Assembly: GCA_016841185.1 (NCBI GenBank)
Contig: JAENZQ010000004.1
Coordinates: forward strand, 1 to 64,000
Direction of reading: 5' to 3'
Length of the DNA: 64,000 bases
Source of the DNA: Anaerovorax odorimutans
GTDB lineage: Bacteria; Bacillota; Clostridia; Peptostreptococcales; JAAYPU01
Position numbers and translations under genes: made by a program. This document shows, one piece after another, positions 32,522 to 60,956 of this stretch (the stretch's first letter is position 1; the number at the start of each line of letters is the position of its first letter). The notes below the pieces were generated by a model. The model did not search any database. It was given only the letters and a program-made list of their open reading frames with translations, and was not told the origin of the DNA.

Positions 32522-32534
32522 AAAGCGCCTCCTT

Positions 32535-34313: not shown

Positions 34314-34363
34314 ATTGTTTACCTCCTTTAATTAAACTGGTATACTGGATATATAATAGAATT

Positions 34364-34379
34364 AGCAATCATTGTGCCA
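34364..34379 (-). promoter_or_regulatory. Sigma-54 (-24/-12) promoter
   Basis: Minus strand TGGCAC-AATGA-TTGCT upstream of the symporter gene. Confidence 0.85.
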
Positions 34380-34527
34380 AAATCAGGTTAATTACTACGG
34401 CTGAATGTTAAATCCAATTTAAACGATTTTTCAGAGCGGAGTACACCCACACGGAATAGTGGTAAATAAGCTATTCTGAAAGCCCTATAAAAAGAAGCTG
34501 AATATAAAGGACTTATAAGCTATATTA

Positions 34528-34581
34528 AAAAACAGACTTAATTTTCAAACTAAAATAATGAATGAAATAAAGTCTGTTTTT
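34528..34581. terminator. Inverted repeat AAAAACAGACTT...AAGTCTGTTTTT
   Basis: 12-bp perfect arms, ~30-nt loop. Confidence 0.5.
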
Positions 34582-34604
34582 ATACATACTGCAGCAACTT
34601 AAGT

Positions 34605-34632
34605 CATAAATGAATTAGTCAATTCATTTATG
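34605..34632 (-). terminator. Perfect 12-bp inverted repeat downstream of sigma-54 regulator
   Basis: CATAAATGAATT-AGTC-AATTCATTTATG. Confidence 0.6.
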
Positions 34633-34636
34633 AATG

Positions 34637-40702: not shown

Positions 40703-42238
40703 ATGAATACCACAGATGTGAAAGACAGAATTCAAATCACAGGACATGATCTCTGCATAGAAGATGTTATCGAGATCGCCAGGTTTGGAAAAAAAGTTCA
40801 ATTATCGGATCGGGCGCGGTCCGGGATTATTAAAGCATATGAGACTGTGAAGCATAAAGTGGATAATAAAAAACCTGTATACGGAATTACTACGGGTTTC
40901 GGTCAGTTAAGTACCGTTGTTATTGATGAAAAGCAGTCAAGCCAGCTTCAAAAAAACCTGATTATGAGCCATGCGTGCGGTGTCGGAAAGCCTTTCGACC
41001 AAGAAGTAACTCGTGCCATTATGCTACTCAGAGCCAATACTTTAGCGAATGGGTATTCGGGGGTTCAACCCAAGGTGGTTGAGACGCTGCTAAAAATGTT
41101 GAACAAAGGTGTTCATCCCGTTATCCCTCAAAAAGGCTCTCTTGGAGCCAGCGGAGATTTAGCAAATCTTGCTCACATTGCGCTAGTCATGATCGGATTG
41201 GGAGAGGCTATATACAATGGTGTGAAAATGGATGGGAAAACCGCAATGATGAAAGCAGGCATACCACCGGTAGAATTGGAGGGAAAAGACGGATTAGGTC
41301 TGATCAATGGGACTCAGGTCATGACGGCGCTGGGTGCATTATATGTCTATGAGGCAGGTTTGCTGATAGAAACTGCTAATATAGCAGGCGCCCTGACCCT
41401 GGAAGCTTTACAGGGATTAACAAATGCTATGGATTCCAGAATCCATAGAGTAAGGCCTCATCGAGGACAGCAAAAATGTGCGGAAGATGTTTTGAAGCTC
41501 ATAGAAGGAAGTGCCTGTGTCAACCAATCAGGCCGTGTCCAGGACGCTTATTCATTAAGATGTATGCCGCAAGTCCATGGGGCTTCCCTGGATGCCGTTA
41601 ATTATGTTAAAAATGTTATCTGTACAGAAATGAATTCTGTTACAGATAACCCCATTGTTTTCTCTGAAGAAGGTGAAATAATTTCCGGAGGCAATTTTCA
41701 TGGGCAGCCTTTGGCCCTATCGTTGGATTTTCTTGCTATTGCTCTTTCAGAATTGGCAAATATCAGCGAAAGAAGAATAGAAAGACTTGTAAATCCACAT
41801 CTAAGCGGGCTTTCGCCATTTTTAACAAGGAACAGCGGTATTAATTCAGGCTATATGATCGCTCAGTATACGGCGGCTTCTCTTGTGTCGGAAAACAAGG
41901 TCATGGCATCTCCTGCAAGTGTTGATTCTATCCCGTCTTCTGCAAATCAGGAAGATCATGTCAGTATGGGTACGATTTCAGCCAGAAAAGCGGGAGAAGT
42001 TGTAGAAAATTTAAGAAATGTGTTGGCAATAGAATTAATGTGTGCAGTGCAAGCCATTGATCTTCAGGATTTAGGAACATTAGGGTCAGGTACGGGAAAA
42101 GCCTATAAAGCCATAAGAGAAATCGTTCCTTTTCTGGATTCGGACAGAGTATTATATTATGATATCGATAAGGTGGCGGATATGATTAAAAAACCTCAAT
42201 TTATTGAAAATATCATAGGTAAACTTGAATGGAATTAA
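40703..42238 (+). CDS. hutH: Histidine ammonia-lyase
   Basis: GTVGASGDLAPLAH-like (GSLGASGDLANLAHIAL), YGITTGFGQLS, QDAYSLRCMPQVHGA. Confidence 0.97.
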   Translation: MNTTDVKDRIQITGHDLCIEDVIEIARFGKKVQLSDRARSGIIKAYETVKHKVDNKKPVYGITTGFGQLSTVVIDEKQSSQLQKNLIMSHACGVGKPFDQEVTRAIMLLRANTLANGYSGVQPKVVETLLKMLNKGVHPVIPQKGSLGASGDLANLAHIALVMIGLGEAIYNGVKMDGKTAMMKAGIPPVELEGKDGLGLINGTQVMTALGALYVYEAGLLIETANIAGALTLEALQGLTNAMDSRIHRVRPHRGQQKCAEDVLKLIEGSACVNQSGRVQDAYSLRCMPQVHGASLDAVNYVKNVICTEMNSVTDNPIVFSEEGEIISGGNFHGQPLALSLDFLAIALSELANISERRIERLVNPHLSGLSPFLTRNSGINSGYMIAQYTAASLVSENKVMASPASVDSIPSSANQEDHVSMGTISARKAGEVVENLRNVLAIELMCAVQAIDLQDLGTLGSGTGKAYKAIREIVPFLDSDRVLYYDIDKVADMIKKPQFIENIIGKLEWN

Positions 42239-42263
42239 AAAGTCGGGAGGAAGGAGAAGATAA

Positions 42264-44303
42264 ATGAATTATTATAATGTATCGAATTTCATGAAAATCA
42301 AACTGGATGATGAGTTGCCGGCAATGCCTGAATTTCAGCCGGGAATCAGAAGAGCTCCAAACAGAGGCTTCAGATTAAGTCGGTCACAGACGGAAATTGC
42401 CCTTAAAAATGCGCTTCGCTATGTCCCCGAATCGCTGCATAAAAAATTAGCGCCGGAATTCTTAGAGGAACTCATAAGGTATGGCCGTATATATGCTTAC
42501 CGTTATCGGCCTTCCGGCAGAATATATGGGAAAAGTATACATGAGTATAAAGGAAATTGTATAGAAGGAAAAGCATTTCAGGTGATGATGGATAACAATC
42601 TGGATTTTGAAATCGCTTTGTATCCTTATGAACTGGTAACGTATGGTGAGACGGGCCAGGTCTGTCAGAATTGGCTTCAATACAGGCTGATCAAGAAATA
42701 CCTTGAAGTGATGACAAGGGACCAGACCCTTGTTGTGGAATCCGGGCACCCATTGGGACTTTTTCCGTCAAAACCGGATGCACCCAGAGTGATTATTACC
42801 AATTCACTGATGGTTGGAATGTTTGATAATCAACGGGATTGGGAAATTGCCGAACAAATGGGTGTGGCTAATTATGGGCAAATGACTGCGGGAGGATGGA
42901 TGTATATCGGACCTCAGGGAATCGTCCATGGGACTTTCAATACCATACTGACAGCCGGTCGGATCAAGCTTGGCGTTCCGGATGATGGAGATCTGAGAGG
43001 AAAGCTTTTTGTTACTTCAGGATTAGGCGGAATGAGCGGCGCTCAGGCAAAAGCCGTAGAAATTGCAAATGGTATAGGGATAATTGCTGAAGTAGATCCT
43101 TCAAGAATAGAGACCCGGTTCAAACAAGGTTGGGTAAGTAAAACAAGCAAAGATCTTGAAGAAGTATTTCAGATAGCAGAAGAGCATGTAAGAAATGGAA
43201 AGACCATATCTATTGGTTATAATGGCAATATTGTGGATCTATTGCAATATGCGGTTGACCATAATAAAAAAATCGATTTATTATCTGACCAGACATCCTG
43301 TCATGCTGTTTATGAAGGCGGGTACTGTCCTCAGGGTATAAGTTTTGAAGAAAGAACCAAACTCTTAAATTCTGACAGGGACCGATTCAAAGCTTTAGTT
43401 GATCAATCTCTCAGAAAACATTTTGAGCTGATCAAGATATTGGTGGAAAAGGGCTCCTATTTCTTTGACTATGGTAATTCATTCATGAAAGCAGTATATG
43501 ATGCAGGTGTCAGAGAAATATCAAAAAATGGTATTGATGAAAAGGATGGATTTATTTTTCCTTCCTATGTTGAGGATATAATGGGTCCAAATTTATTTGA
43601 TTATGGCTACGGACCTTTCAGATGGGTTTGCCTCAGCGGTAAAGAAGAAGATTTGATAAAGACTGATAAAGCGGCGATGTCCTGTATAGATCCGGACAGA
43701 CGCGGACAGGATCGGGATAACTGGACATGGATAAGAGATGCTCATGATAATAAATTAGTAGTTGGGACAAAAGCAAGGATCCTCTATCAGGATGCGGAAG
43801 GAAGAACAAGAATTGCTCTCAAATTTAATGATATGGTCCGGAGTGGAGAGGTTGGCCCCATCATGCTTGGAAGAGATCACCATGATGTAAGCGGAACTGA
43901 TTCGCCTTTTAGAGAGACATCTAATATCAAAGACGGCAGTAATGTCATGGCAGATATGGCAACCCAATGTTTTGCAGGAAATGCAGCAAGAGGTATGAGC
44001 TTGGTGGCACTGCATAATGGAGGCGGTGTTGGCATCGGCAAGGCTATAAACGGAGGATTCGGCCTGGTCTTAGACGGTTCTGAAAGAGTAGACGGAATTA
44101 TAAAATCAGCTATGATGTGGGACGTTATAGGTGGTGTTGCAAGAAGATCATGGGCAAGAAATTGCAATGCTGTAGAAACTTCTATAGAATACAACAAAAA
44201 TTATGAAGGTAAAGGTCATATTACTATTCCGTATATATCAGAAGATAACTTAATAAAAGAAACCGTTGCAAAAGCTTTTAAGAAACATGGATATAACAAA
44301 TAA
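42264..44303 (+). CDS. hutU: Urocanate hydratase
   Basis: YGQMTAGGWMYIGPQGIVHGTF, SGLGGMSGAQAKA. Confidence 0.97.
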   Translation: MNYYNVSNFMKIKLDDELPAMPEFQPGIRRAPNRGFRLSRSQTEIALKNALRYVPESLHKKLAPEFLEELIRYGRIYAYRYRPSGRIYGKSIHEYKGNCIEGKAFQVMMDNNLDFEIALYPYELVTYGETGQVCQNWLQYRLIKKYLEVMTRDQTLVVESGHPLGLFPSKPDAPRVIITNSLMVGMFDNQRDWEIAEQMGVANYGQMTAGGWMYIGPQGIVHGTFNTILTAGRIKLGVPDDGDLRGKLFVTSGLGGMSGAQAKAVEIANGIGIIAEVDPSRIETRFKQGWVSKTSKDLEEVFQIAEEHVRNGKTISIGYNGNIVDLLQYAVDHNKKIDLLSDQTSCHAVYEGGYCPQGISFEERTKLLNSDRDRFKALVDQSLRKHFELIKILVEKGSYFFDYGNSFMKAVYDAGVREISKNGIDEKDGFIFPSYVEDIMGPNLFDYGYGPFRWVCLSGKEEDLIKTDKAAMSCIDPDRRGQDRDNWTWIRDAHDNKLVVGTKARILYQDAEGRTRIALKFNDMVRSGEVGPIMLGRDHHDVSGTDSPFRETSNIKDGSNVMADMATQCFAGNAARGMSLVALHNGGGVGIGKAINGGFGLVLDGSERVDGIIKSAMMWDVIGGVARRSWARNCNAVETSIEYNKNYEGKGHITIPYISEDNLIKETVAKAFKKHGYNK

Positions 44304-44316
44304 GGAGGAGAGAAAA

Positions 44317-45213
44317 TTGGGAAAAATTGTTGAATGTGTGCCGAATTTCAGCGAAGGCAGAGATATGAAAAAAGTTGAAAGAATCATTGCACCGTTCATT
44401 ATTACAGATGGATGTAAGCTTTTAGATTATAGTACGGATAAAGATCATAACAGAGCGGTGGTTACCGTTATAGGGAATCCGGATTGTGTGAGAAGAGCAG
44501 TTGTGGAAGCTGTAGGGATCGCAATAGAAGAAATTGATATGAACAAACATACCGGTGGGCATCCCAGAATGGGGGCAGCAGATGTAATTCCTTTTATTCC
44601 CATTAAAGATATGGACATGGAAGAAGCTATTACCCTTGCAAATGAAACAGCCAAAGAAATTGCAGATAAATATGGCCTACCCATTTATCTTTATGAAAAA
44701 GCGGCAACACTGAAAGAAAGAGAGAATCTTGCAAATGTAAGAAAAGGTCAGTATGAGGGCATTAAAGAAAAAATTCTGAAGCCTGAATGGAAACCGGATT
44801 ACGGTCCGTCTGAGGTCCATCCTACAGCCGGTGCTTCAATTATTGGAGCAAGGATGCCTTTGATTGCATTCAATATCAATCTTGGCACCAACCAACGATG
44901 GATTGCAGATAAGATTGCTCGATGTATCCGCCATATTTCCGGAGGTTTCAGGTATACAAAAGCCATGGGTGTTGATTTGGAGGAAAGAGGTATCGTACAG
45001 GTTTCTATTAACATGACGGATTTTACCAACACGGCATTATACAGAGTATTTGAAACCGTAAAATTTGAAGCCAAAAGATATGGTGTACCTGTTGTAGGCA
45101 GTGAAATTATCGGCTTGACACCAATGGAAGCCCTTGTTGATTCGGCAGTTTATTATATGCAGATCGAAGATTTTAATATGAATCAGGTGCTGGAAAGCCG
45201 ACTGCTGGAATGA
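44317..45213 (+). CDS. ftcD: Glutamate formimidoyltransferase (TTG start)
   Basis: IVECVPNFSEGRD; AAGGAGGAGAG RBS precedes TTG at 44317. Confidence 0.95.
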   Translation: MGKIVECVPNFSEGRDMKKVERIIAPFIITDGCKLLDYSTDKDHNRAVVTVIGNPDCVRRAVVEAVGIAIEEIDMNKHTGGHPRMGAADVIPFIPIKDMDMEEAITLANETAKEIADKYGLPIYLYEKAATLKERENLANVRKGQYEGIKEKILKPEWKPDYGPSEVHPTAGASIIGARMPLIAFNINLGTNQRWIADKIARCIRHISGGFRYTKAMGVDLEERGIVQVSINMTDFTNTALYRVFETVKFEAKRYGVPVVGSEIIGLTPMEALVDSAVYYMQIEDFNMNQVLESRLLE

Positions 45214-45471
45214 TCTAAGGTCAAAAAAACAGAAGGTTAGACGGATAGAAGGCTGGAGGGTTAGAAAAAGATAAAAGAAAACAGATAAAAAAACAATAGT
45301 TAGTGACAATTTTTTTCGTAAAAATTCCATACTATAAGAACGAGCTACGAACCTAAGCCTATGAGCTATAATCCATAATCTATACTCCTTTTATACTTAC
45401 ACTTACACTACCCCAAAGGAGTTACTTATACTTATCCGGCCACAGTTATTTAAATTTATTAGATTAGGAGT

Positions 45472-46716
45472 GTGTATATGAAGAATGTGATCGTCAGGTC
45501 CAATTGTATTGTAACATGTAATGAAGGGGCAGAAATATTGGATGGGTATATTCATGTTATTGACGGCAGAATAGAGGAACTTGGAAAAGGAGATGCACCT
45601 GTCAGATGTTTCAATAAGGAAACGAGATATGTTGATGCCAGGGGTAAAACAGTTACACCGGGACTCATTGATGCTCATACCCATTTGGTTCATGGCGGTT
45701 CCAGAGAAAACGAACTGGCCTTAAAGCTGAAAGGAACACCTTATCTGGAAATTCTTAAAAAAGGCGGAGGCATTCTCAGTACGGTTGAAAGTACAAGAAA
45801 GTCCACGAAAGAAGAACTTAAAACGAAGGCAAGAAAAAGCCTGGATCAGATGCTGATTCACGGGACAACAACCATTGAAGCCAAAAGCGGGTATGGGCTT
45901 GACTTTGAGACGGAAGTCAAATGTTTAAAAACCGCTTTGGAATTAAACGAAGAGCATCCGGTAGATATTATCAATACTTATTTAGGTGCCCATGCAATAC
46001 CAAAAGAGTATAAAGATAACATTGAAAATTATATGATCTTTATGACAGATGAAGTAATGCCCTATGTTTCAGAAAACCACTTGGCAGAATTCATGGATGT
46101 TTTTTGCGAAGAAGGTGTTTTTTCTCCGCAGCAGTCCCGAGTGCTAATGGAAGCAGGAAAAAGTCTTGGGTTTAAGCTTAAAATACATGCGGATGAGATT
46201 GTACCTTTAAATGGAGCGGAGCTGGCATCAGAGATGCAGGCCGTATCTGCGGATCATTTGCTGGCTGCTTCTGAGGAGGGGATGGAGGCAATGCGTAAAG
46301 CGGATGTTACTGCCGTACTTCTTCCCGGTACTTCATTTTACCTTATGCTTGGAAAGTATGCCGATGCCCGTAAGATGATGGATAAAGGCGTCAGAGTAGC
46401 TATTGCAACGGATTATAACCCAGGGAGCTGTCCGACGGAAAACTTGCAGGAAATAATGACTTATGCTTGTTTCGGCATGAGATTATTGCCTGAAGAGATC
46501 ATACGGTGTATGACCATAAATGCCGCTTATGCCATTGACCGTTCTCAGGAAATAGGAAGTATTGAGCATGGAAAAAAGGCAGATTTAGTGGTTTTTGATG
46601 CACCTAATCTGGAGTATATTTTTTATCATTTTGGAATTAATCAAGTAGACAAAGTAATAAAAGACGGAAAATTAGTTGTTGAGAACGGAAAATTGACTGA
46701 AGGAGTAAGAGTATGA
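45472..46716 (+). CDS. hutI: Imidazolonepropionase
   Basis: TPGLIDAHTHLVHGGSRENE, EAKSGYGLDFETE, IHADEI, ATDYNPGSCP. Confidence 0.97.
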   Translation: MYMKNVIVRSNCIVTCNEGAEILDGYIHVIDGRIEELGKGDAPVRCFNKETRYVDARGKTVTPGLIDAHTHLVHGGSRENELALKLKGTPYLEILKKGGGILSTVESTRKSTKEELKTKARKSLDQMLIHGTTTIEAKSGYGLDFETEVKCLKTALELNEEHPVDIINTYLGAHAIPKEYKDNIENYMIFMTDEVMPYVSENHLAEFMDVFCEEGVFSPQQSRVLMEAGKSLGFKLKIHADEIVPLNGAELASEMQAVSADHLLAASEEGMEAMRKADVTAVLLPGTSFYLMLGKYADARKMMDKGVRVAIATDYNPGSCPTENLQEIMTYACFGMRLLPEEIIRCMTINAAYAIDRSQEIGSIEHGKKADLVVFDAPNLEYIFYHFGINQVDKVIKDGKLVVENGKLTEGVRV

Positions 46717-47360
46717 GTTTAATGAACAAAACAATAAAAGATTTCAGCGATATTCTTGCCAGTAACCAGCCTGCTCCAGGCGGAGGGAGTACTTCGGCCT
46801 TGGCCGGGCTTCTGGCCGCTTCTCTGACTATGATGGTAGCGGATCTTTCGATAGGTAAGAAATCGTATGAAATACTGAATGACGATATAAAGATAAAAAT
46901 AACGAGGGATCACGAAATCATCAAAAAACTTAAAAAAGAGTTGGAAGTATTGGTAGATGAAGATACTAAAGCATTTTTGCTTTTTATGGAAGCGCTTAAA
47001 TTACCTAAGAAAACGGAAGAAGAAAAATCCAAAAGAAAAGAAGCCATACATAATGCCGGTAAATATGCTTTAAAGGTTCCTTTGACGGCTGCAGAAAAAT
47101 GCCTTGCTGTTTTAAAACACCAGCCTGTTATTGCAGAATACGGCAATAAAAATGCGGTGTCGGATATAGGCGTAGGTGCATTAATGGCACTTTCCGGGCT
47201 TGAGGGCGCAGTCCTTAATGTAAAAATCAATTTACCCGGTATTGCAGATGAGGAATTAAAAAGAGAAGCTCTGTCTAAAATTGAAAGGTTCTGTGCTGAA
47301 GGCCGCCAGCTTAAGACAGAGATTATGGAAATTGTCAACAAAAGAATAGAGATATTATGA
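46713..47360 (+). CDS. fchA: Methenyltetrahydrofolate/formimidotetrahydrofolate cyclodeaminase
   Basis: FSDILASNQPAPGGGSTSALAGLLAASLTMMVADLSIGKK. Confidence 0.95.
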   Translation: MSLMNKTIKDFSDILASNQPAPGGGSTSALAGLLAASLTMMVADLSIGKKSYEILNDDIKIKITRDHEIIKKLKKELEVLVDEDTKAFLLFMEALKLPKKTEEEKSKRKEAIHNAGKYALKVPLTAAEKCLAVLKHQPVIAEYGNKNAVSDIGVGALMALSGLEGAVLNVKINLPGIADEELKREALSKIERFCAEGRQLKTEIMEIVNKRIEIL

Positions 47361-47440
47361 AATTAAAAAAATGGGCTTAATAGACTTCCCCCATAAATTC
47401 ATGTAAAATATTATCAGAATGAATTTTTGGGGGGAGATGT

Positions 47441-47884
47441 ATGTTAGAAACTTTAAGCATTGGGAAAATAGCTACATTGATGGCCCTTGGATCGGAAAGC
47501 GATATAAGAAACATCAGGAAAAAGGCTGAGAATGGAGGATATAAAGTATATAAAGGATGTGTAGGATCCATGGATTCTGCAAAAATATTTGCGGCTATCG
47601 AAACAGCAGCAAAAAAAGAAGAACTCATAAAGCCTCTTTACAGAGAAGAGCATTCGATATATCATTCTATTCTTGATGCATACTCTGCTATTTGCAGAGG
47701 GCAGGAGGGATTAGGCGCGGTATTAAGGACAGCCGGGCTTGTATACAGTATTGTTAGAGGACCTAGGATACCGGAGGAAATAAACGACGGTGAATGGGTG
47801 GCAGTGGTGTTGTATGGAAATATGGGTGCACCTACAAAAGGTTATGAGCATGAGGTCATCGGGCTGGGAGTTAATCCCATATAA
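47441..47884 (+). CDS. hutP: HutP family antiterminator/regulator
   Basis: SIGKIATLMAL...GCVGSMDSAKIFAAIETAAKKE...HSIYHSILDAYSAI...VRGPRIPEEINDGEWVAVVLYGNMGAPTKGYEHEVIGLGVNPI. Confidence 0.9.
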   Translation: MLETLSIGKIATLMALGSESDIRNIRKKAENGGYKVYKGCVGSMDSAKIFAAIETAAKKEELIKPLYREEHSIYHSILDAYSAICRGQEGLGAVLRTAGLVYSIVRGPRIPEEINDGEWVAVVLYGNMGAPTKGYEHEVIGLGVNPI

Positions 47885-48018: not shown

Positions 48019-48047
48019 TTGACATTTTTGGGGAATCATTGGATAAT
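48019..48047 (+). promoter_or_regulatory. Sigma-A promoter for TRAP operon
   Basis: TTGACA-N17-GATAAT. Confidence 0.7.
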
Positions 48048-48054
48048 AAAATAA

Positions 48055-48240
48055 GTAGAAGAAGTTTTTACTTCTTGAAGTTTAGCAGGAATTATATAAA
48101 AACGGTTTTTACCCGAAAACAATTAAATGTAGGAATGTGGTTATGTAGATAATAAGTAGCTATAAGATACACTGTCCTTATGTCTTAAGGATGCGTGCTT
48201 ATTTTGTATGACGAACTCCTATATTGGAGTTTTTTTTATT
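48055..48240 (+). promoter_or_regulatory. Structured leader with terminator upstream of dctP
   Basis: Hairpins AAGAAGT-TTTT-ACTTCTT, TCCTTA-TGTCT-TAAGGA, and AACTCC-TATATT-GGAGTT followed by Ts (48214-48237). Confidence 0.55.
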
Positions 48241-48264
48241 ATAAAAACGAAAAGGGAGAGAGAA

Positions 48265-49356
48265 ATGAAAAAAAGAAATTATAAGAAGCATTTGAAAAAA
48301 ACATGCAAGACGTTATTTTTACTGATGTTATCCATGATGTTTGTTTTCAGCGGCTGTTCCGGCAACACTCCATCATCTGGAGAAGCCGATGATACTGCGG
48401 AGCCTGTTGAACTTAAATTGGCTCATTTTTTCCCGAGTACCCATCCCGCTGAAACCCACCTGATCCTGCCATGGGCAAAAGCAATAGAAGAAGCTACGGA
48501 GGGCCGGGTTATAATAACAAGTTACCCCAATCAGACTTTACTGCAGGCGGATTCTATTTATGACGGCGTTGTGAACGGTGTTGCAGATATGGGGCTTTCA
48601 TGTTTTGCCTATACCAGGGGAAGATTTCCGGTTCTTGAAGTGTTTGAGCTTCCCGGCATTACTTATTTAAATTCCAAAGTTGCAAGCAGAGTAGCCTGGG
48701 AAGGCATTCAACAGATTAACCCCGAAGAAGTGCAGGATACGAAACTGATGATGGTTATTGCAACAGGACCGGGAGATCTGTATACAAAAGTACCTGTTAA
48801 TAGTCTTGATGATCTTCAGGGGCTTGAACTAAGAGCAACAGGTCTCAGTGCAAAGACTTTGGAAGCGTTAGGCGCTACGCCGGTTGCCATGGCTCAGTCC
48901 GAAGCTTATGAAGCACTCTCAAAAGGAGTCGTTCAGGGAAACCTTGGGCCTATAGAAGTTTTGAAAGGATGGCGCCAGGCTGAAGTTACCGAGAGTTTAA
49001 CGCTTACACCTTTCCTTTACAATACACTGTTTTTTGTAACCATGAATCTCGATACATGGAATTCTATAAGCCCGGAAGATCAGGAAACCATTCTATCTGT
49101 TAATCAGGAATTTTTCGAGGAGATTGGTGCCGGTTTATGGGATATGCAAAATGAAGATGCACTGGCTTGGGCTGAAGAGGATCAAGGAATGCAGATTATA
49201 AAGCTTTCTCAGGAAGAACAAGACAAGTGGAAGAGTTTTCTTAAACCCATACAGGACGAATATGTTAATAAAATAAATGAAAGCGGCCTTCAGGGGCAGG
49301 ATATATTGGATTTAGTAAATCAACTGGCTGAAACATATAATGAGGAATATGAATAG
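48265..49356 (+). CDS. dctP: TRAP transporter substrate-binding lipoprotein
   Basis: Lipobox FVFSGCSG; LKLAHFFPSTHPAETHLILPWAKAIEEATEGRV. Confidence 0.9.
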   Translation: MKKRNYKKHLKKTCKTLFLLMLSMMFVFSGCSGNTPSSGEADDTAEPVELKLAHFFPSTHPAETHLILPWAKAIEEATEGRVIITSYPNQTLLQADSIYDGVVNGVADMGLSCFAYTRGRFPVLEVFELPGITYLNSKVASRVAWEGIQQINPEEVQDTKLMMVIATGPGDLYTKVPVNSLDDLQGLELRATGLSAKTLEALGATPVAMAQSEAYEALSKGVVQGNLGPIEVLKGWRQAEVTESLTLTPFLYNTLFFVTMNLDTWNSISPEDQETILSVNQEFFEEIGAGLWDMQNEDALAWAEEDQGMQIIKLSQEEQDKWKSFLKPIQDEYVNKINESGLQGQDILDLVNQLAETYNEEYE

Positions 49357-49452
49357 AGAACGGAAGGTTAGAGGACAGATAAGAAATAAGTGATAAAAGA
49401 AAATATTAAGAATTCCAACTTGTTGGAATAGCCTATAAGGGAGGAGAATAGA

Positions 49453-50001
49453 ATGAAATGCCTATTTGGCGTGACTAAAAAGATAAGTATCACATTGGAT
49501 AAAATAGCCGGTATTTTTATTGTACTGGTGATGCTATTGGTTGTTTCAAATATTTTGTTACGTGCGGTTTTCAACAGCCCTTTAAAGGGGACCTATGAAG
49601 TTGTCGGACTTTTGACTGCGGTTTCAGTAGGGTTGGGTCTTTCTTACTGTGCTTTTCAAAACGGACATATTGCCATTAGTTTTATTATTCAGCGCCTTCC
49701 TGAAAAAGTACAGAGCACCATTGATACTTTAACGGATTTTATTGCTTTTGCTTTTTGGGGATCAGCCGCCTGGCAACTGGTTAAATATGCAGGCACAATG
49801 CAAGAAAATGGTTTGGTAACGGCAACATCAGAGATTCCAATTTATCCATTTGTGTATATAATTGCTTTAGGATTCTTCGCTCTTTGTCTGGTGATTATCA
49901 CTAAACGGATTCAAGCAATAGGAGAAATCGTAACAAAAATATTAAAATCAGGATTTTTAGAAATGCTTAATTCTAAGTCGGCGGGGAAGGAAACCATATG
50001 A
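49453..50001 (+). CDS. dctQ: TRAP transporter small permease
   Basis: 4-TM, NSPLKGTYEVVGLLTAVSVGLGLSYCAFQNGHIAI. Confidence 0.9.
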   Translation: MKCLFGVTKKISITLDKIAGIFIVLVMLLVVSNILLRAVFNSPLKGTYEVVGLLTAVSVGLGLSYCAFQNGHIAISFIIQRLPEKVQSTIDTLTDFIAFAFWGSAAWQLVKYAGTMQENGLVTATSEIPIYPFVYIIALGFFALCLVIITKRIQAIGEIVTKILKSGFLEMLNSKSAGKETI

Positions 50002-51305
50002 ATTTATTACTGATTGGCTTTATTGGAATCATTATATTTTTCATTTTAATTGCGTTAAGGATGCCCATTGCATTTGCTATGGCGCTTGTAGGCTTTATTG
50101 GTTTCAGTATTTTGACATCTTTTTCAGCAGGAATAGATATGGTGGCAAAGGATCTGTTCAGCAACTTATCCTCTTATTCATTAAGTGTTATTGCAATGTT
50201 TGTATGGATGGGGTTTTTAGCCTATTATTCCGGCATAGGCTCCCATTTATATATTTTTGCTTATAAAATGATTGGTCATTTGCCGGGAGGGCTCGCTATT
50301 GCTACTCAGGGAGCTTGTGCAGTTTTCGGAGCAATCTGCGGATCCAATACCGCAACGGCAGCTACCATGGGTGCCATTGCTTTGCCTGAAATGAGAAAGT
50401 ACAAATATGATCGGTCTCTGGCAACTGCCAGTATTGCTGCAGGAGGAGTCTTAGGTGTTATGATTCCTCCCAGTGTAATATTTATTGTCTATGGGATGGC
50501 TACCGAGCAATCGGTAGGAAAGCTTTTTATGGCAGGAATATTCCCCGGAATCCTTATGATGTTTTTATACATGGTCACCATATTTATAATGACCAGCAGA
50601 AATCCTGAGCTGGGCCCGGCGGGGCCTAAATCCAACTGGAAGGAAAGGATAGATGCTCTTCGAGGGGGGCTGGGGGAAGCTCTGATTGTTTTTCTTCTCT
50701 CAATAGGAGGACTTTTTGCAGGATGGTTTACACCTACAGAGGCAGGAGCGGTAGGAGCAGGAGGCGTCCTAATAATTTCCCTGTTAGAAAGACGTTTAAG
50801 TTGGGAAGACCTGAAGAAGTCATTATCCGATACAACAAGAACCACAGCAATGATTATGTTGATGATTGCAGGCGCTATTATATTCGGGAGATTTATGGCC
50901 ATCAGCAGAATTCCCTTTGAGGTTGCAAATTGGGCAGGATCACTGCCTTTTCCGCCTTTTGTTGTTTTGGGAATTATTTTATTCATATATCTGGTCCTTG
51001 GGTGTTTTCTGGATGCATTGGCTTTGGTTTTGCTGACAACACCTATTTTTTTCCCTGTTGTTGTAGATACTTTAGGGTATGATCCCATATGGTTTGGCGT
51101 CATTATGGTGTTGGTGGTTGCCATGGGAGTGATTACACCACCGGTAGGCATGAACGTATATATTATCAAAGGCGTTGCGCCGGACATCCCCCTTGAAGAT
51201 ATTTTTAAAGGCATCTGGCCGTTTTTGTTTGCTTTGATCGTATGTATCGTTTTACTGATTATTTTTCCTCAGATTGCAATTTTTTTACCAAATTGGCTTG
51301 CTTGA
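49998..51305 (+). CDS. dctM: TRAP transporter large permease
   Basis: LRMPIAFAMALVGFIGF...GAICGSNTATAATMGAIALPEM...GVMIPPSVIFIVYG. Confidence 0.95.
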   Translation: MNLLLIGFIGIIIFFILIALRMPIAFAMALVGFIGFSILTSFSAGIDMVAKDLFSNLSSYSLSVIAMFVWMGFLAYYSGIGSHLYIFAYKMIGHLPGGLAIATQGACAVFGAICGSNTATAATMGAIALPEMRKYKYDRSLATASIAAGGVLGVMIPPSVIFIVYGMATEQSVGKLFMAGIFPGILMMFLYMVTIFIMTSRNPELGPAGPKSNWKERIDALRGGLGEALIVFLLSIGGLFAGWFTPTEAGAVGAGGVLIISLLERRLSWEDLKKSLSDTTRTTAMIMLMIAGAIIFGRFMAISRIPFEVANWAGSLPFPPFVVLGIILFIYLVLGCFLDALALVLLTTPIFFPVVVDTLGYDPIWFGVIMVLVVAMGVITPPVGMNVYIIKGVAPDIPLEDIFKGIWPFLFALIVCIVLLIIFPQIAIFLPNWLA

Positions 51306-51337
51306 TATGTCCATTATCTGGACTTCCTCATCTTAAA

Positions 51338-51376
51338 AACTCTATTTGCCGAACTATCGGTGGAATAGAGTTTTTT
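51338..51376. terminator. Intrinsic terminator after dctM
   Basis: AAACTCTATT...AATAGAGTTTTTT. Confidence 0.8.
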
Positions 51377-51385
51377 ATTTCCTTT

Positions 51386-52471
51386 TCAGCCGCAGTCATT
51401 GAATATTTTGGCCATTAATTCGGCTCTGCTGCATAAATCTAATTTTTTAAAAATACTTTTAATATGATTTTTGACGGTATAGGTGCTGATATGCAGCATT
51501 TCAGCTATTTGGCTGTTGTTAAATCCTTTATAAATCATTAAGACCAGTTGCTTTTCTCTCTCGGTCAGTGTATATTTTTCAATAACTTTTTCCGCACTGA
51601 GCCGCAGCATTGAACCAAACCAGTATTTATCATATAGGTAACCAATGTAATATTTTGATATATTACCTGATTCGTCTATATCCTGATTGATTATGATCTC
51701 AACGATGTAAGATTCGGTAATTAAGTAGAAAGTTGAGTCCGTCTTTTTACTATCCGGATCGGACATAGCATTTTTAATCATTTCGATAAAACTGTTAATC
51801 ATATCTTCCAATATGTATTTTTGAGTAATTTTATAGATCCGTTCATATGCCAGCTTGTTGGAAAAAATAAGGGAGAAGTTCTGATCGAAAATGATAAAGC
51901 CGAACAGCATGTTATTTTTAGTAATATTAAAAAGTTTTGAACCCATATAATACTCTTTGTTTACTTTGCATAACGAATATAGGGTGCCGAGTATTGAACT
52001 CAAATATCTGGCTTTTTCTTCATCTTTAAGAGAAAATTGCGGCATGGTGTTTTTTCGAAAAAGACGAAATCCGTCACCATTATCGTTGAATGTAATGAAA
52101 AGGCAGTGAGATATCTGACGTGTTGAGAGGTATTGAATAAATTCAGGAGAAATATTAGAAGGTTCGTTAACTGAGAAGCTGATGATACGTTGTGCGTTTA
52201 AATTTTCACTCATTCGATTTGAATAATTTAAAATGGGATCATATCTGTAAAATTTAGAAGTGTAATCCTCCGCCATATTCATTTCAATATTGTATTGTTC
52301 TATATTGAGGGGCAATGCATTCTTAGTCAGTGTGATAAACATGCCGCTATTGAAGTCGATAACATTCTTGAGTAAAACCATAACATCCTTTTCAAAGTCA
52401 TGACTTCCACTGAGCATAAGAGTCAATTGAAGAAGCTGCTGAAATTGCGGGACGTCTAATGATGGTACCAT
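51386..52471 (-). CDS. LuxR-family transcriptional regulator
   Basis: C-term YTLTEREKQLVLMIYKGFNNSQIAEMLHISTYTVKNHIKSIFKKLDLCSRAEL. Confidence 0.9.
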   Translation of the reverse strand: MVPSLDVPQFQQLLQLTLMLSGSHDFEKDVMVLLKNVIDFNSGMFITLTKNALPLNIEQYNIEMNMAEDYTSKFYRYDPILNYSNRMSENLNAQRIISFSVNEPSNISPEFIQYLSTRQISHCLFITFNDNGDGFRLFRKNTMPQFSLKDEEKARYLSSILGTLYSLCKVNKEYYMGSKLFNITKNNMLFGFIIFDQNFSLIFSNKLAYERIYKITQKYILEDMINSFIEMIKNAMSDPDSKKTDSTFYLITESYIVEIIINQDIDESGNISKYYIGYLYDKYWFGSMLRLSAEKVIEKYTLTEREKQLVLMIYKGFNNSQIAEMLHISTYTVKNHIKSIFKKLDLCSRAELMAKIFNDCG

Positions 52472-52582
52472 GGGGCCTCACCTCATTTTGAATATTTTTT
52501 TTAATTATATGTCCAATTACTCGAAATTTCAACAAGATAAGCATTATCATAAAAAAAATAACAAATCAGAGGGGTATAAATG

Positions 52583-52594
52583 ACACCATGGTGT
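52583..52594. promoter_or_regulatory. Candidate operator palindrome in divergent LuxR/M24 intergenic region
   Basis: ACACCATGGTGT. Confidence 0.4.
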
Positions 52595-52669
52595 TATATT
52601 CAAAACAGATTCGTAGTGATATATTTTAAATAATATAGAATATTCTATAAATTCCGGGAGGAAATCAAA

Positions 52670-53842
52670 ATGCATTTTGAAAAAACCGAATATTTGCAGA
52701 GGATGCAAAAAACACAAGAGGCAATGGCCGCTAAGGGGATGGATGTCTTATTGGTATCCGATCCGGCGAATATCTGCTATTTATCAGGTCATGACGCATG
52801 GTCATTTTATGTACCGCAAGGGTTGATTATTACTTTAGAAGATAAAATGCCGGTATTCATAGGACGATATATGGATGTTTACGGCGGTGTCATCAAAAGC
52901 ACATGGCTTGACGAGCAGCATGTCAGAGCTTACAGCGATACGCTTGTCCATAATCCCGAGCATCACCCCATGGAAAGGTTTGCGGAAGTAATAAAGGAAT
53001 TGGGTGCCCGCAAAAAAACAATTGCAGTGGAAATGGATAATTACTGGTTTACGGCCAGAGGATATGAATGTTTAAAAGCGAATTTGACTGATGCGGAATT
53101 TATGGATGGAAATTTGCTTATAAACTGGATAAGGATCATAAAATCAGACAAGGAGATAGAATACCAGCGGAAAGCAGGGCATTTGGCCAGTCTGGCTATT
53201 CAAGCCGGCATCGATGCAATAGAAGCCGGAAAGCGTCAATGTGATGTGGTGGCAGCCATTTGTCATGCACAGATCCACGGTACAGAAGAATTTGGAGGCG
53301 ACTATCCAAGCATTGTTCCTTTATTGCCTACAGGGGAGATGGCAGGAGCACCGCACCTTACCTGGTCAGATGAAAGATACTCTGATAATACGGTTGTTGC
53401 AATAGAAATTGCCGGATGTTACCGAAGATATCATTCTCCTCTTGCAAGGACCGTCTGTATCGGAAATCCTGATCCAAAGGTGAAAGATGTGGCTGAAATT
53501 GCAATAGAGGGTTTAGAAGCGGCTTTGGGAGCCGTAAAGCCCGGAGTTTATCTGGAGGAAATGGAGTTGGCATTCAGAAATGTACTAAAAAAGAATAGAA
53601 TGCAAAAAGAATCACGGATCGGGTATTCTATAGGGCTGAATTATCCTCCTGACTGGGGTGAACATACAGCCAGTATCAGATGCGGCGACAGGACAATCCT
53701 AAAGCCCAATATGACATTTCATTGTATTCCGGGTATGTATTACGGTGACTTTGGAGTTTCAATCAGTGAAGCGTTTAGAGTAACAGAAAACGGATATGAG
53801 ACTTTTGCCCATTACCCGAGGAAACTTATTATAAAACAGTAA
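52670..53842 (+). CDS. M24-family hydrolase, ectoine-hydrolase (DoeA)-like
   Basis: LVSDPANICYLSGHDAWSFYVPQGLII, EEFGGDYPSIVPLLPTGEMAGAPHLTWSD, ESRIGYSIGLNYPPDWGEHTASIRCGDRTILKPNMTFH. Confidence 0.8.
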   Translation: MHFEKTEYLQRMQKTQEAMAAKGMDVLLVSDPANICYLSGHDAWSFYVPQGLIITLEDKMPVFIGRYMDVYGGVIKSTWLDEQHVRAYSDTLVHNPEHHPMERFAEVIKELGARKKTIAVEMDNYWFTARGYECLKANLTDAEFMDGNLLINWIRIIKSDKEIEYQRKAGHLASLAIQAGIDAIEAGKRQCDVVAAICHAQIHGTEEFGGDYPSIVPLLPTGEMAGAPHLTWSDERYSDNTVVAIEIAGCYRRYHSPLARTVCIGNPDPKVKDVAEIAIEGLEAALGAVKPGVYLEEMELAFRNVLKKNRMQKESRIGYSIGLNYPPDWGEHTASIRCGDRTILKPNMTFHCIPGMYYGDFGVSISEAFRVTENGYETFAHYPRKLIIKQ

Positions 53843-53904
53843 TTTTGATTTTAGATATTTGTGTATTAAAGACAATGTCTGAAAACATAAAGGGGAATAA
53901 AATC

Positions 53905-55355
53905 ATGGACCATAACAGGACACCATTATTTGATGCAATTAAACAATATATTGATACCAAGCCTGCCTATTTCAGGATACCGGGACACAGATTTGAAAAA
54001 GGCATCAATAAGAAATGGACAGATGTGGTTGGGGAGGCTATTTTTAAATTTGATTTAACTGAGACCCCTTTTTTAGATGATCTTCATAATCCTAAAGGGG
54101 TTATAAAAGAGGCTCAGGATTTGGCCAAAGAGGTTTTTAAAGCAGACAGGACCTATTTTCTAATCAATGGAACAACGTGCGGAAATGAAGCTATGGTCAC
54201 CTCCACAGCTTTTGAAGGAGAAGAGATTCTGATTCCAAGAAATGCCCATAAATCAGTATTGATGGGATTGGTAATCAGCGGGGCAACACCGAAGTATATT
54301 ATGCGCAAATATTAGAAGAATGGGGGATACATGGATGCATTGAAGCAAGTCAGGTAAAAAATTTTATTGAGGCAAACCCGGATTGTAAATCCGTATTTAT
54401 GGTAAGCCCTTCTTATTATGGATTGTGCAGTGATATACAAGGGATTGCTGAAGTCTGCCATGATCATAATATTCCATTGCTGGTAGATGAAGCCCATGGG
54501 GCACATTGTTATTTTTCATCTTTGCTTCCCGCCGGTGCTATGATAGCAGGAGCGGATATGTGTGCTCAGAGTATCCACAAGGTGATGGGTTCATTGACTC
54601 AAAGTTCCATGCTTCATGTTAAGTCAAATCATATCGATATTCCTATGCTGGAGTCCAACCTTCATGTTGTTCAAAGCACTAGTCCTTCATATCTTCTGAT
54701 GACATCTCTTGATATGGCCCGTAACGAACTTGCAACAAGAGGAGAAGAACTCATTGGTCAAGCGGCATTATTGGCGGAATATGCCAGAAATGAGATTAAT
54801 AACATCAAAGGTATTTGCAGTATGACAAAAGAAGTCGTTGGCAAGTGCGGTGTTAATGATATGGATTGCACAAGATTAACGTTTTCTGCCAGGAATATAG
54901 GACTTACAGGTTTTGAATTAAAGACCATCTTATTTGAGGATTTTAATATTGATGTTGAACTTTCGGATCATACCAATGTGCTTGCAATCATTTCATATGC
55001 CAATACCAGTAGTGATATCGACCTGCTGGTCAGTGCATTGCAGAAAATCTCCCGCACTGTTGCAAAAGGGAGAATTGTTTTAAGTGAAATTCACCTTCCT
55101 TCTGTGCCACCCTATGTATTTTCTCCAAGAAAAGCGCATTACAGTAAAAAGAAACGTATATTATGGAAGGATGCCAAAAATCATGTAGCAGGAGAGATGA
55201 TAGCACCTTATCCGCCCGGAATTCCTATTATATACCCGGGAGAACTCATAACAGATGAAATATGGGCATTTATAGAATATTACCGGAAGCTGAACGGGCA
55301 TTTGCATGGTCCTGCAGATTCAAAGTTAATAAACTACAATATCATCGATGCATAA
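53905..55355 (+). pseudogene. Orn/Lys/Arg (group III PLP) decarboxylase, interrupted by a -1 frameshift near 54304
   Basis: N-part RTPLFDAIKQYIDTKPAYFRIPGHRFEKG ends at TAG 54313; frame +1 continues QILEEWGIHGCIEASQV...LLVDEAHGAH...CAQSIHKVMGSLTQSSMLH. Confidence 0.85.
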
Positions 55356-55437
55356 AATAATGATCCTTTGGAATTTAAAAGTGAGAGCATTTAACCTTTA
55401 ATCTCTTAAACAGAATAAAAAGATGGGAGTGATCGGC

Positions 55438-56628
55438 ATGAATATTAATAATGAAGTAGAGGCGCTGAAGGAAGAATTAATCAATTTGAGAAGAGATTTT
55501 CATCAATATCCGGAGCTGGGATTTGAGTTGTACAGAACGTCAGAAATCGTTGCCAATTATCTTGAAGAATGCGGATTAGATGTTCAGAGAAATATTGCAA
55601 AAACAGGAGTCGTCGGTTTGCTTAAGGGAAACCGACCGGGGCGCACAGTTATACTTCGGTCCGATATGGATGCACTGCCAATCCAGGAAGAAAACACTTT
55701 ACCTTACCGGTCTGTCAATAAAGGCATTATGCATGCCTGCGGCCATGATGGACATATGGCCATGCTTTTGGTAGCGGCAAAAATACTGGCTAAATATAAA
55801 GAAAAAATAAAGGGAAATGTTAAATTTGTATTTCAACCAAATGAAGAGGATGCCGGAGCGGAGATCATGATAAATGAGGGAATACTGGAAAACCCTCATG
55901 CAGATGCTGCTTTTGGTATTCATCTGTGGTCGTCCATTGAAACAAAAAAAATCGGTATCGTTCCCGGACCCATTATGGCTTCAAGTCATTATTTCAAAAT
56001 AATCATTCATGGAAAAGGAGGACATGGAGGTGCGCCACATATGTCCGTGGATCCTATCAGTTGTGGTGTAAATATCATTCAGGCGATACAAACCATGCAA
56101 ACCAGAGAACTGAATGCATTAAAACCAACTGTCATAACTTTCTGCAAAATCAATTGCGGGACTTCTCCAACCATCATTCCTGAAAAAATGGAAATGGAAG
56201 GATCTATAAGATGCTTGCATAACGAGGCAGAATATATACAAAAACGCTTTGGAGAGATTGTAAAAAGCATTTGTCAAGCACATCGAACTACTTGTGATTT
56301 ATCTTTTAAATGCGGAAATATTTTACTGAATAATGATTTCCATATGACGGAACTTGTTATTAAAGCTGGAAAAAAAATAGTGAGCCGGGAAAATATTTTA
56401 GATTCGAATATCAGTGTATTATTAGGAGAAGATTTTGCAGAATTTTCAGCCAGAATTCCCAGTGCTTTCTATTTTGTTGGTATTGCAAACAGAGAAAAAG
56501 GAACGGATTACCCCCATCATCATCCTTGTTTTAATATCGATGAAGATGCCTTGCCGATAGGTGCCGAGATGCACATAAGATGCGCCCTTGAATATTTGGG
56601 CAGCTCAGATAATAGGTGTTACCTATAA
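55438..56628 (+). CDS. M20-family amidohydrolase/deacylase
   Basis: LRSDMDALPIQEE, HACGHDGHMAMLL, GHGGAPH. Confidence 0.95.
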   Translation: MNINNEVEALKEELINLRRDFHQYPELGFELYRTSEIVANYLEECGLDVQRNIAKTGVVGLLKGNRPGRTVILRSDMDALPIQEENTLPYRSVNKGIMHACGHDGHMAMLLVAAKILAKYKEKIKGNVKFVFQPNEEDAGAEIMINEGILENPHADAAFGIHLWSSIETKKIGIVPGPIMASSHYFKIIIHGKGGHGGAPHMSVDPISCGVNIIQAIQTMQTRELNALKPTVITFCKINCGTSPTIIPEKMEMEGSIRCLHNEAEYIQKRFGEIVKSICQAHRTTCDLSFKCGNILLNNDFHMTELVIKAGKKIVSRENILDSNISVLLGEDFAEFSARIPSAFYFVGIANREKGTDYPHHHPCFNIDEDALPIGAEMHIRCALEYLGSSDNRCYL

Positions 56629-56730
56629 AATTTAATGATCAGGGAGGTTGTTAGAATTTAAAAAAGTTGATTTTGTAACTTAAAGTGAACGGCATAATAA
56701 AATCATGGTTGATAAAAAGGAGGACTATGT

Positions 56731-58119
56731 ATGAATCTTTTTTTAGAGATGATCGGAAAAGTATCTAACTGGCTTTGGGGTCCGCCATTATTGGGACTTT
56801 TGGTTTGTGGCGGTGTGTTTTTAACCATTCGCTTAAGATTCTTTCATATTAGACATGCCGGATACATTTTTAAGCAGACCTTTGGCAGAATCTTTGACAA
56901 AAATACTCAAGGAGAGGGAACTGTCACTGCATTTCAGGCACTGACTTCTGCAGTTGCATGTACCGTTGGAGCAGGAAATATTGTTGGCGTTCCGGCAGCT
57001 ATTATGTTTGGCGGGCCCGGTGCTGTATTTTGGATGTGGCTGATCGCTTTGGTAGGTATGAGCCTAAAGTATTCCGAAGTAGTACTTGCCATTAAATACA
57101 GGCAGAAGAATGAAGAAGGAGAATATGTGGGTGGGCCAATGTATTATATGACAAAAGGTCTTAAAATGAAATGGCTGGCTGTTATATTTGCTTTAGGCTT
57201 GATGATTGAAGTTTTGCCGAGCACAATGGTTCAAGCAAATTCATTGGCGGGATCGGCATCAGCAGTATTCAATATCAATCCTATGATTACCGGAATTATT
57301 ACACTTATTATTGTAGGGATTGTTGTTATTGGCGGGATCAAAAGAATAGGAAGTTTTACCGAAAAGTTTGTACCGCTTATGGCTCTTCTTTATGTAGGTA
57401 CTGCAATTATTATCGTTATTATCAACATCACAGAGATACCGGGTGTTATTGCGATGATATTCAGTTATGCGTTCCAGCCCATAGCCGCCGTAGGAGGATT
57501 CGCCGGTGCTGGTATTGCAGCTACCATCCGCTGGGGCTTCGCACGTGGGTTGTATTCCAATGAGGCAGGACTGGGAACAGCACCCATTGCCCATGCAACG
57601 GCCACTACAGATCATCCCGTACGACAAGGGTTTTGGGGAATTACAGAGATTTTTATAGATACTATCGTTATTTGTTCTGCTACGGCTTTTGCCATACTTT
57701 CCACGGGAATATGGACTGTTGAAGGGGCGCTGGATAATCCCTCAGCATTGACGGCAATGGCATTCAGTGATGCCATAGGAAGCGTAGGCGGAATGATTGT
57801 AACCGTTTCTTTGCTGTTATTTGTTATTTCAACTTTAATCGTATTGATTTACTATGGAGAAAAACAGGCAGAATTCTTATTTGGATTAAAATTTTCTAAA
57901 TTGATGAAATACGTTTATGTACTTTCTATTCCGATAGGGGCAATAGGCGGGGCGAAAGTAATATGGCAGTTTCTTGATATCAGTTTGGCCATTATACTTA
58001 TTCCAAATATGATTGCCGTATTGTTACTGAGTAAAGAAGTCGTGGTATTAACTAAAGAGTTCTTTTCGTCTGAAAAATTTTTCCTGAAGGATATTGAGAG
58101 AAAAAGCTCAACAAATTAG
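56731..58119 (+). CDS. AGCS sodium:alanine/glycine symporter
   Basis: FQALTSAVACTVGAGNIVGVPAAIMFGGPGAVFWMW...RGLYSNEAGLGTAPIAHA. Confidence 0.95.
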   Translation: MNLFLEMIGKVSNWLWGPPLLGLLVCGGVFLTIRLRFFHIRHAGYIFKQTFGRIFDKNTQGEGTVTAFQALTSAVACTVGAGNIVGVPAAIMFGGPGAVFWMWLIALVGMSLKYSEVVLAIKYRQKNEEGEYVGGPMYYMTKGLKMKWLAVIFALGLMIEVLPSTMVQANSLAGSASAVFNINPMITGIITLIIVGIVVIGGIKRIGSFTEKFVPLMALLYVGTAIIIVIINITEIPGVIAMIFSYAFQPIAAVGGFAGAGIAATIRWGFARGLYSNEAGLGTAPIAHATATTDHPVRQGFWGITEIFIDTIVICSATAFAILSTGIWTVEGALDNPSALTAMAFSDAIGSVGGMIVTVSLLLFVISTLIVLIYYGEKQAEFLFGLKFSKLMKYVYVLSIPIGAIGGAKVIWQFLDISLAIILIPNMIAVLLLSKEVVVLTKEFFSSEKFFLKDIERKSSTN

Positions 58120-59774: not shown

Positions 59775-60956
59775 ATGGTTACTGTTGGAGAACTTATGTC
59801 TCTGAAGCCTATATCTGATTTTAAGCTGATTACTTCCGAAAAAGGGCTGGGAAAACCTGTTTTGGATACCGGTATATTAGAATATGAATCAAATGAAAAA
59901 ATTGCTGAAACATTTAAAAATGGTGATTTTGTAATTACAACTCTTTTTCTTGCAAAAGATAATCCTAATCAGGCGGAAGAATGTCTTAAAATGCTAATTA
60001 ATCAGGGTGTTAGTGCTATCGCAGTGAAAAATGTTTATTTTAACGATTTTTCAGTTGCGTTAAAGGATTATGCAGAAGAGCATAATTGTCCCGTTTTTAT
60101 TTTTTCTGATATTTTTTTTGATGATATCATTGTGACTGTCAAAAATGCCATAGATTATTTTAATTCAAAGGAATACTATGAAAAAAAAATTGAGAGCATC
60201 ATTTCGTGTGATACTGAAAGAAATTTGGTTCTCAGAACTGCTTATGAAATAAATGCATCATTTTATAATAATGTAGTGAGCGCTTACTGTGTAAGAAAAA
60301 AGAAAGATTCTGAAGAAATGAATAAACCTGAGGAAAGTACTGCAAATAGTTTTGCCGAAGCACATACTGCGACAACCGTTTTGCAATATAAAAAGGGGCT
60401 GTTAGTTTTACATACCATGGATCATCTAAAGCCATTGGCTTTAGACAGTCTTTATGATTATTTAACACATAATGAGATTTCAAGAAGCCAATACAATATT
60501 GGTGTCAGCAATATCCATACTGACCTTTGCGATTTAGACTTTTGTATTAAGGAAAGCATTTGCGCTTATATAACCTGCAGGAAGGAAAGCATCCCGATTA
60601 AAACATTTAATGATACAGGAGTCGATCAGGTACTCCTGCCTTTGATAGACAGTTATTGGATGAGGAAATACTATAGCCTGTACATAAAACAAATTTTAGA
60701 CTACGACAAAACCCACGGTACAAATCTAATGGATACGCTGATTCATTATGTTGAAAGTAATGGAGAAATTGTTCAGACCGCTAAAAAAACTTTTCAACAT
60801 GCCAATACAGTGCGGTACAAACTTGAAAAGGTAAAAAAACTCCTTAAGCTTGAAAACAGTGATTCTTTCTATGTACAGCTATATATTGCAGTCAGACTTT
60901 ATTTGCTGAAGGAATTCTCAGAAGAAACACTTGACATGCCTGACAAGGATTATTAG
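59775..60956 (+). CDS. PucR-family transcriptional regulator
   Basis: N-term MVTVGELMSLKPISDFKLITSEKGLGKPVLDTGILEYESNE; C-term VESNGEIVQTAKKTFQHANTVRYKLEKVKKLL. Confidence 0.9.
   Translation: MVTVGELMSLKPISDFKLITSEKGLGKPVLDTGILEYESNEKIAETFKNGDFVITTLFLAKDNPNQAEECLKMLINQGVSAIAVKNVYFNDFSVALKDYAEEHNCPVFIFSDIFFDDIIVTVKNAIDYFNSKEYYEKKIESIISCDTERNLVLRTAYEINASFYNNVVSAYCVRKKKDSEEMNKPEESTANSFAEAHTATTVLQYKKGLLVLHTMDHLKPLALDSLYDYLTHNEISRSQYNIGVSNIHTDLCDLDFCIKESICAYITCRKESIPIKTFNDTGVDQVLLPLIDSYWMRKYYSLYIKQILDYDKTHGTNLMDTLIHYVESNGEIVQTAKKTFQHANTVRYKLEKVKKLLKLENSDSFYVQLYIAVRLYLLKEFSEETLDMPDKDY

Follow-up and report, generated by a model that had tools for sequence, protein, structure and literature searches.

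A 64,000 nucleotide (nt) stretch of Anaerovorax odorimutans DNA (assembly GCA_016841185.1, contig JAENZQ010000004.1, positions 1–64,000), here termed the window, carries a DoeA/EutD-like hydrolase of the M24 fold and, divergent from it, a LuxR-type regulator. These two genes probably form the core of a system for ectoine-type ring opening. The evidence is good that this anaerobe has a DoeA-like enzyme together with a regulator dedicated to it. An initial annotation had proposed a larger catabolic island with a decarboxylating pathway. Such a pathway is not supported, because its decarboxylase is broken and the transporters of the window are not those that accompany M24 in related genomes.

Judged from sequence, there is a good probability that the M24 protein performs DoeA-type chemistry. 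Independently of metal, it would open ectoine or 5-hydroxyectoine at the cyclic amidine ring by hydrolysis, giving an N-acetyl-2,4-diaminobutyrate. The role of the DoeB/EutE deacetylase would fall, in relatives, to an M20 hydrolase of the same cassette. In the window, the downstream M20 is of a neighboring clade normally paired with an AGCS symporter and may deacetylate likewise. The AGCS gene would belong with the M20 gene. A TRAP transporter operon is probably a bystander, as is the frameshifted decarboxylase. Ectoine breakdown has been demonstrated in just a few Proteobacteria and the gene clusters of Clostridia are putative (PMC13188858); as of 2018, ectoine consumers were thought to be confined to Proteobacteria (PMC5924519).

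The M24 hydrolase

The DoeA/EutD model TIGR02993 aligns end to end with the M24 protein (E-value = 1e-126). The protein's best matches in the PDB are 6twk and 6twj, both of Halomonas DoeA, at approximately 1e-105 (6twk, E-value = 6e-105), and the next match is a prolidase at 1e-29. The five metal ligands of true M24 peptidases (D, D, H, E, E) correspond to E246, P257, Y319, I353 and S366 in the window protein and to E255, P266, Y329, M363 and T376 in Halomonas DoeA. The alignment shows the DoeA-type loss of all metal ligands; the catalytic residues are assigned from alignment alone. Across 12 DoeA-type proteins there are 80 invariant alignment columns, and the window protein keeps the invariant residues. 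The motif block that first suggested a relation to DoeA is present letter for letter. The gene is intact and has a good ribosome-binding site (GGGAGG).

A maximum-likelihood tree built from 49 M24 proteins places that of the window in a six-member clostridial subgroup with a support of 100/100. The subgroup is found with canonical EutD/DoeA, as sister to the canonical clade and not within it, and peptidases are outside. The genome's own M24 paralogue is 23% identical and is also outside the DoeA group. Both the active-site mapping and the phylogeny, which had been proposed as checks, agree with the structure matches in placing the protein close to DoeA. An ordinary Xaa-Pro peptidase would display the Pfam Peptidase_M24 and Creatinase_N domains, which are indeed present, but the replacement of all five ligands and the position of peptidases outside the DoeA group lead to the rejection of this reading, which is barely conceivable.

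The likeness to DoeA/EutD (TIGR02993; PDB 6twk, 6twj, 6yo9) consists of the M24 fold, the full-length alignment, the ligand loss and common invariant motif blocks. The differences are a score below the model cut-off, the separate clostridial subgroup, Pro in place of His at position 49 and the lack of an EutE/DoeB partner. Assignment as a predicted DoeA-type hydrolase, of a sister subgroup rather than a member of the equivalog, is well supported.

The closest known M24 protein is in the genome UBA1426 (73% identity), and orthologues in clostridial M24-M20-TRAP cassettes show 44–65% identity. The UBA1426 gene is followed by genes for aspartate-semialdehyde dehydrogenase and aspartokinase (L003 395–4117). 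These are probably housekeeping genes, but could in principle take a semialdehyde derived from 2,4-diaminobutyrate (DABA).

Cassettes around M24 in related Clostridia

A survey of the order covered 397 genomes and gave a strong M24 match in 25, a count that includes the window's own genome. Two cassette layouts recur around M24 in the relatives. Type A, found in four families, consists of GntR, M24, TRAP Q and M, M20, TRAP P, an aldehyde:ferredoxin oxidoreductase (AOR)-family protein and a serine hydroxymethyltransferase (SHMT)-like pyridoxal phosphate (PLP) enzyme. Type B consists of PanB, an unnamed 312 amino acid (aa) protein, a glutamate-dehydrogenase-like protein, IclR, M20, TRAP P/Q/M, a PRK07475 racemase-like protein, M24, EutB and RidA. 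The 312 aa protein (L100 908–1846 and orthologues) has no Pfam or NCBIfam match and is conserved beside PanB and the glutamate-dehydrogenase-like gene.

Of the 24 further genomes with M24, at least 20 hold an M20 of the same family within approximately 10 kb of it, and in three of the others M24 is at or near a contig edge. In four of four cassette TRAP binding proteins tested, both TeaA and UehA are within the top four PDB matches. The EutB homologues of genomes G316 (416 bits) and G122 (417 bits) are above the EutB cut-off of 413. EutA-like proteins are found in G316, G132, G216 and G097, all below the EutA cut-off. Within the M24 subgroup the contexts vary: M20-IclR-M24-EutA-like in G132; EutB and EutA-like near LuxR, M20, M24 and a TeaA/UehA-type TRAP in G316; and glutamate dehydrogenase-M20-M24-TRAP in MD294. 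Between its EutA-like and LuxR genes, G316 also encodes an aldo/keto reductase that carries a 4Fe-4S domain at its C-terminus (L131 4774–5928).

Ectoine or 5-hydroxyectoine is likely the substrate of the clostridial M24 group, because M24 of the relatives is situated in conserved cassettes with M20, a TeaA/UehA-type TRAP and often EutA- or EutB-like proteins. Putative clostridial ectoine clusters already reported are consistent with this substrate (PMC13188858, 2026). In the putative Gram-positive clusters described there, e.g. PucR-EutB-M24-cyclodeaminase-M20-homoserine dehydrogenase in Priestia, an M20 (named AbgB) replaces EutE. The annotated EutB, cyclodeaminase and M20 of a Priestia plasmid surround an M24 that is 54% identical to that of the window. 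Unlike these clusters, the window has no EutB, EutC, homoserine dehydrogenase or aldehyde dehydrogenase neighbors, and its regulator is of the LuxR type rather than PucR, the regulator found with ectoine clusters of Bacilli (PMC13188858).

The window locus is not a cassette of the relatives' kind. It has the orthologous M24 in common with types A and B. Its LuxR is shared with G316 and also with UBA1426, where the locus is a separate one. However, the window's TRAP and M20 differ from those of the cassettes, and no EutA/EutB-like, PanB or glutamate-dehydrogenase-like genes are nearby. No EutE/DoeB or other ectoine gene adjoins M24; the neighbors are a TRAP of another type, LuxR, the OKR (ornithine/lysine/arginine-type) decarboxylase, M20 and AGCS. 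The anaerobic cassettes offer parts open to experiment: M20 instead of EutE, the TeaA/UehA-type TRAP, EutA/EutB-like proteins, LuxR in one subgroup and SHMT-like/AOR in another.

The LuxR-type regulator

Homologues of the LuxR sensor domain were searched for in 343 genomes and found in just two others, G316 and G334, both of which carry an M24 of the window's subgroup. The G316 homologue is approximately 2 kb from M20-M24. A further homologue (35%) occurs in UBA1426 beside M20, cassette-type TRAP and EutA-like genes and a PRK07475 protein, at a locus separate from the UBA1426 M24. LuxR alone among the window genes tracks the M24 subgroup. It has the strongest case of any window gene as a partner of M24, because its sensor homologues are confined to genomes with the same M24 subgroup and the G316 copy is near M24. 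A role as dedicated regulator of M24 is probable on these grounds. The link of a LuxR-type regulator to this M24 subgroup is apparently new.

Other genes of the locus

The initial placement of the TRAP, LuxR, M24, M20 and AGCS genes is recovered at the same positions. The features are:

48208–49356, 49453–50001 and 49998–51305, + strand: TRAP transporter operon P/Q/M (DctP, small permease, large permease)
51386–52471, − strand: LuxR-type regulator with GerE helix-turn-helix, 361 aa, divergent from M24, by Pfam PF00196
52670–53842, + strand: M24-fold DoeA/EutD-like hydrolase, 390 aa, by TIGR02993, PDB 6twk/6twj, tree and ligand loss
53845–55355 (open reading frames 53845–54315 and 54399–55355), + strand: OKR-type PLP decarboxylase, frameshifted, by Pfam OKR_DC_1 on each half
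55423–56628, + strand: M20D amidohydrolase/deacylase, 401 aa, by TIGR01891
56731–58119, + strand: AGCS sodium:amino-acid symporter, by TIGR00835

The decarboxylase is not intact. Its two open reading frames encode the N-terminal and C-terminal portions of a single OKR decarboxylase but differ in frame, and no uninterrupted reading frame is present. Alignment with intact 58–60% homologues places a single-base loss at approximately 54305, and ATG 53905 is the likely start codon. The break may mark a true pseudogene or an artefact of the assembly. Homologues are common (121 of 397 genomes) and the closest (54–60%) are intact elsewhere, but none of the 12 homologue neighborhoods read contains M24, and no OKR gene is present in those M24 cassettes of the relatives that were read. 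A linkage of decarboxylase and M24 is rejected on this count, and a conserved M24-decarboxylase-M20 neighborhood, which the initial annotation had asked for, does not appear: the cassettes read have no OKR gene and the window M20 belongs with M20-AGCS modules. The decarboxylase is very improbable as a live step of a pathway, and the locus is a poor place to seek a decarboxylating route. Another OKR decarboxylase of this genome, 39% identical and intact, is encoded on a separate contig (G000:C27), where its cluster is of a different kind.

The TRAP operon had been proposed to supply the substrate. The best PDB matches of DctP are the TRAP binding proteins 4n6d, 4pgn and 4nap (E-values 1e-52 to 1e-48), which are far closer than TeaA (2vpn, 3gyy) or UehA (3fxb). 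Unlike the cassette TRAPs of the relatives, DctP is not of TeaA or UehA type, and the comparison rejects the operon as an ectoine importer. The genome has at least 16 TRAP binding proteins, among which DctP ranks eighth in similarity to a cassette binding protein; two better-ranked ones are in loci without M24 or EutA/EutB-like genes. Import of the M24 substrate by this TRAP is improbable, and the operon is probably a bystander and not an ectoine transporter.

The window M20 scores 358 bits with TIGR01891 (cut-off 154). With NF038260, the model for the N-acetyl-DABA deacetylase DoeB2, it gives 259 bits (E-value = 6e-77), below the cut-off of 550. AGCS scores 463 bits with TIGR00835, above its cut-off. 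In a tree the window M20 groups at 99/100 with M20s linked to AGCS, apart from the cassette M20s, and AGCS is its conserved partner. The same gene pair and clade are found in G087 (M20 66% and AGCS 69% identical) and G334, and together with a TRZ/ATZ-type amidohydrolase in G038, G006, G064 and G055; unlike in the window, these modules have no adjacent M24. The nearest M20 homologues (55–66%) are almost all in M24-positive genomes, largely of one family. This co-occurrence is above expectation but, being mostly within one family, is only suggestive. Deacetylation of the M24 product by the window M20 is a plausible but not a probable role.

A three-gene module of AGCS, TRZ/ATZ-type amidohydrolase and M20 recurs at L196, L197, L198 and L199. 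Its substrate is possibly another cyclic or acylated amine.

Alternative explanations

Several points weigh against ectoine-type ring opening by the two-gene core. The M24 protein scores 423 bits with TIGR02993, below the equivalog cut-off of 613 and below the clostridial and Priestia relatives (471–531) and the canonical S. meliloti protein (839). The support that unites its subgroup with canonical EutD/DoeA is moderate (80/92). The Pro49 that replaces the canonical His is also found in paralogues from other contexts (L177, L186). Some clusters that lack ectoine genes also pair a DoeA-like M24 protein with an M20, so that M24 and M20 alone are insufficient to fix the substrate. A search of the window's own genome for EutA gave no match, an empty answer that is weak evidence, and a search for EutB gave a best match of 36% to a threonine-dehydratase-like protein, far below the orthologues. 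DctP matches TeaA and UehA at just 1e-11 to 1e-10 and does not identify a TeaABC/UehABC transporter.

These points would fit an M24 that is a DoeA-like paralogue whose substrate is some other cyclic amidine or acyl-amino compound, with M24-M20-AGCS as a small catabolic operon. The low score, the His-to-Pro change, the lack of an EutA match and of an EutB-grade match in the genome and of an ectoine-type TRAP at the locus, the known DoeA-like paralogues and the M24-positive genomes of the nearest M20 homologues are all on its side. However, the closest M24 relatives adjoin EutA-like, EutB and TeaA/UehA-type TRAP genes and all DoeA-type substitutions are kept, and changed specificity is unlikely. 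The locus could also be a decaying remnant of an ectoine cassette, with M24 and LuxR left, their partners lost, the decarboxylase dying and M20-AGCS an unrelated neighbor. The frameshift and the self-standing nature of the M20-AGCS module are consistent with decay, as is the absence from the locus of EutA-like, EutB-grade and TeaA/UehA-type TRAP genes, for which the genome gave no comparably similar match. Against it, M24 is intact with its invariant residues and ribosome-binding site, and M20-AGCS co-occurs with M24 genomes; a remnant is unlikely.

The original island would import ectoine by TRAP, open it by M24, free diaminobutyrate by M20 and convert this by the OKR decarboxylase to 1,3-diaminopropane, an anaerobic decarboxylating route. 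The genes from M24 through AGCS are co-directional with short gaps, M24 is DoeA-like and the M20 family includes DoeB2-like enzymes. But the frameshift, the location of the 54–60% decarboxylase homologues away from M24 in the 12 neighborhoods read, a binding protein nearest to non-ectoine TRAP proteins and an M20 outside the cassette clade make this island highly improbable.

The SHMT-like/AOR variant and minor observations

AOR-family and SHMT-like genes close the type A cassettes (L133 1340–4794; L096, L097, L132, L136, L137, L138). Of the 397 genomes, 11 carry the SHMT-like gene. Each of these is among the 25 that are M24-positive, and in some the gene is not adjacent to M24. The genomes span six families and the hypergeometric probability is 5e-15, a value that ignores shared descent. 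A search of the window's own genome for the SHMT-like gene gave no strong match. In type A relatives, M24 and M20 would yield 3-hydroxy-2,4-diaminobutyrate. The SHMT-like enzyme would then cleave this 3-hydroxy-DABA by retro-aldol reaction to glycine and aminoacetaldehyde, and the aldehyde:ferredoxin oxidoreductase would convert aminoacetaldehyde to a second glycine, feeding fermentation without oxygen. It is a tentative and rather doubtful proposal that the window M24 belongs to such an uncharacterized anaerobic ectoine/5-hydroxyectoine catabolism of Clostridia, in which the relatives' SHMT-like/AOR cassette would yield glycine; the order of reactions is inferred. A literature search for ectoine fermentation by anaerobes, or for a route through a hydroxymethyltransferase, gave nothing relevant, and the cassette with these two enzymes is apparently new.

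A promoter scan showed no excess compared with shuffled sequences. Downstream of the locus, a PucR-family regulator (59775–60956) was considered as an ectoine regulator and rejected, as its similarity to the Priestia PucR is just 25% over 119 aa. Upstream, a histidine utilization operon (40703–47884) reads as hutH, hutU, ftcD-like, hutI and fchA-like genes and ends in the antiterminator HutP (NF002838, above cut-off). Positions 31118–36484 carry an M20-type amidohydrolase, a sodium/solute symporter and a PrdR-like sigma-54 regulator, another possible catabolic unit.

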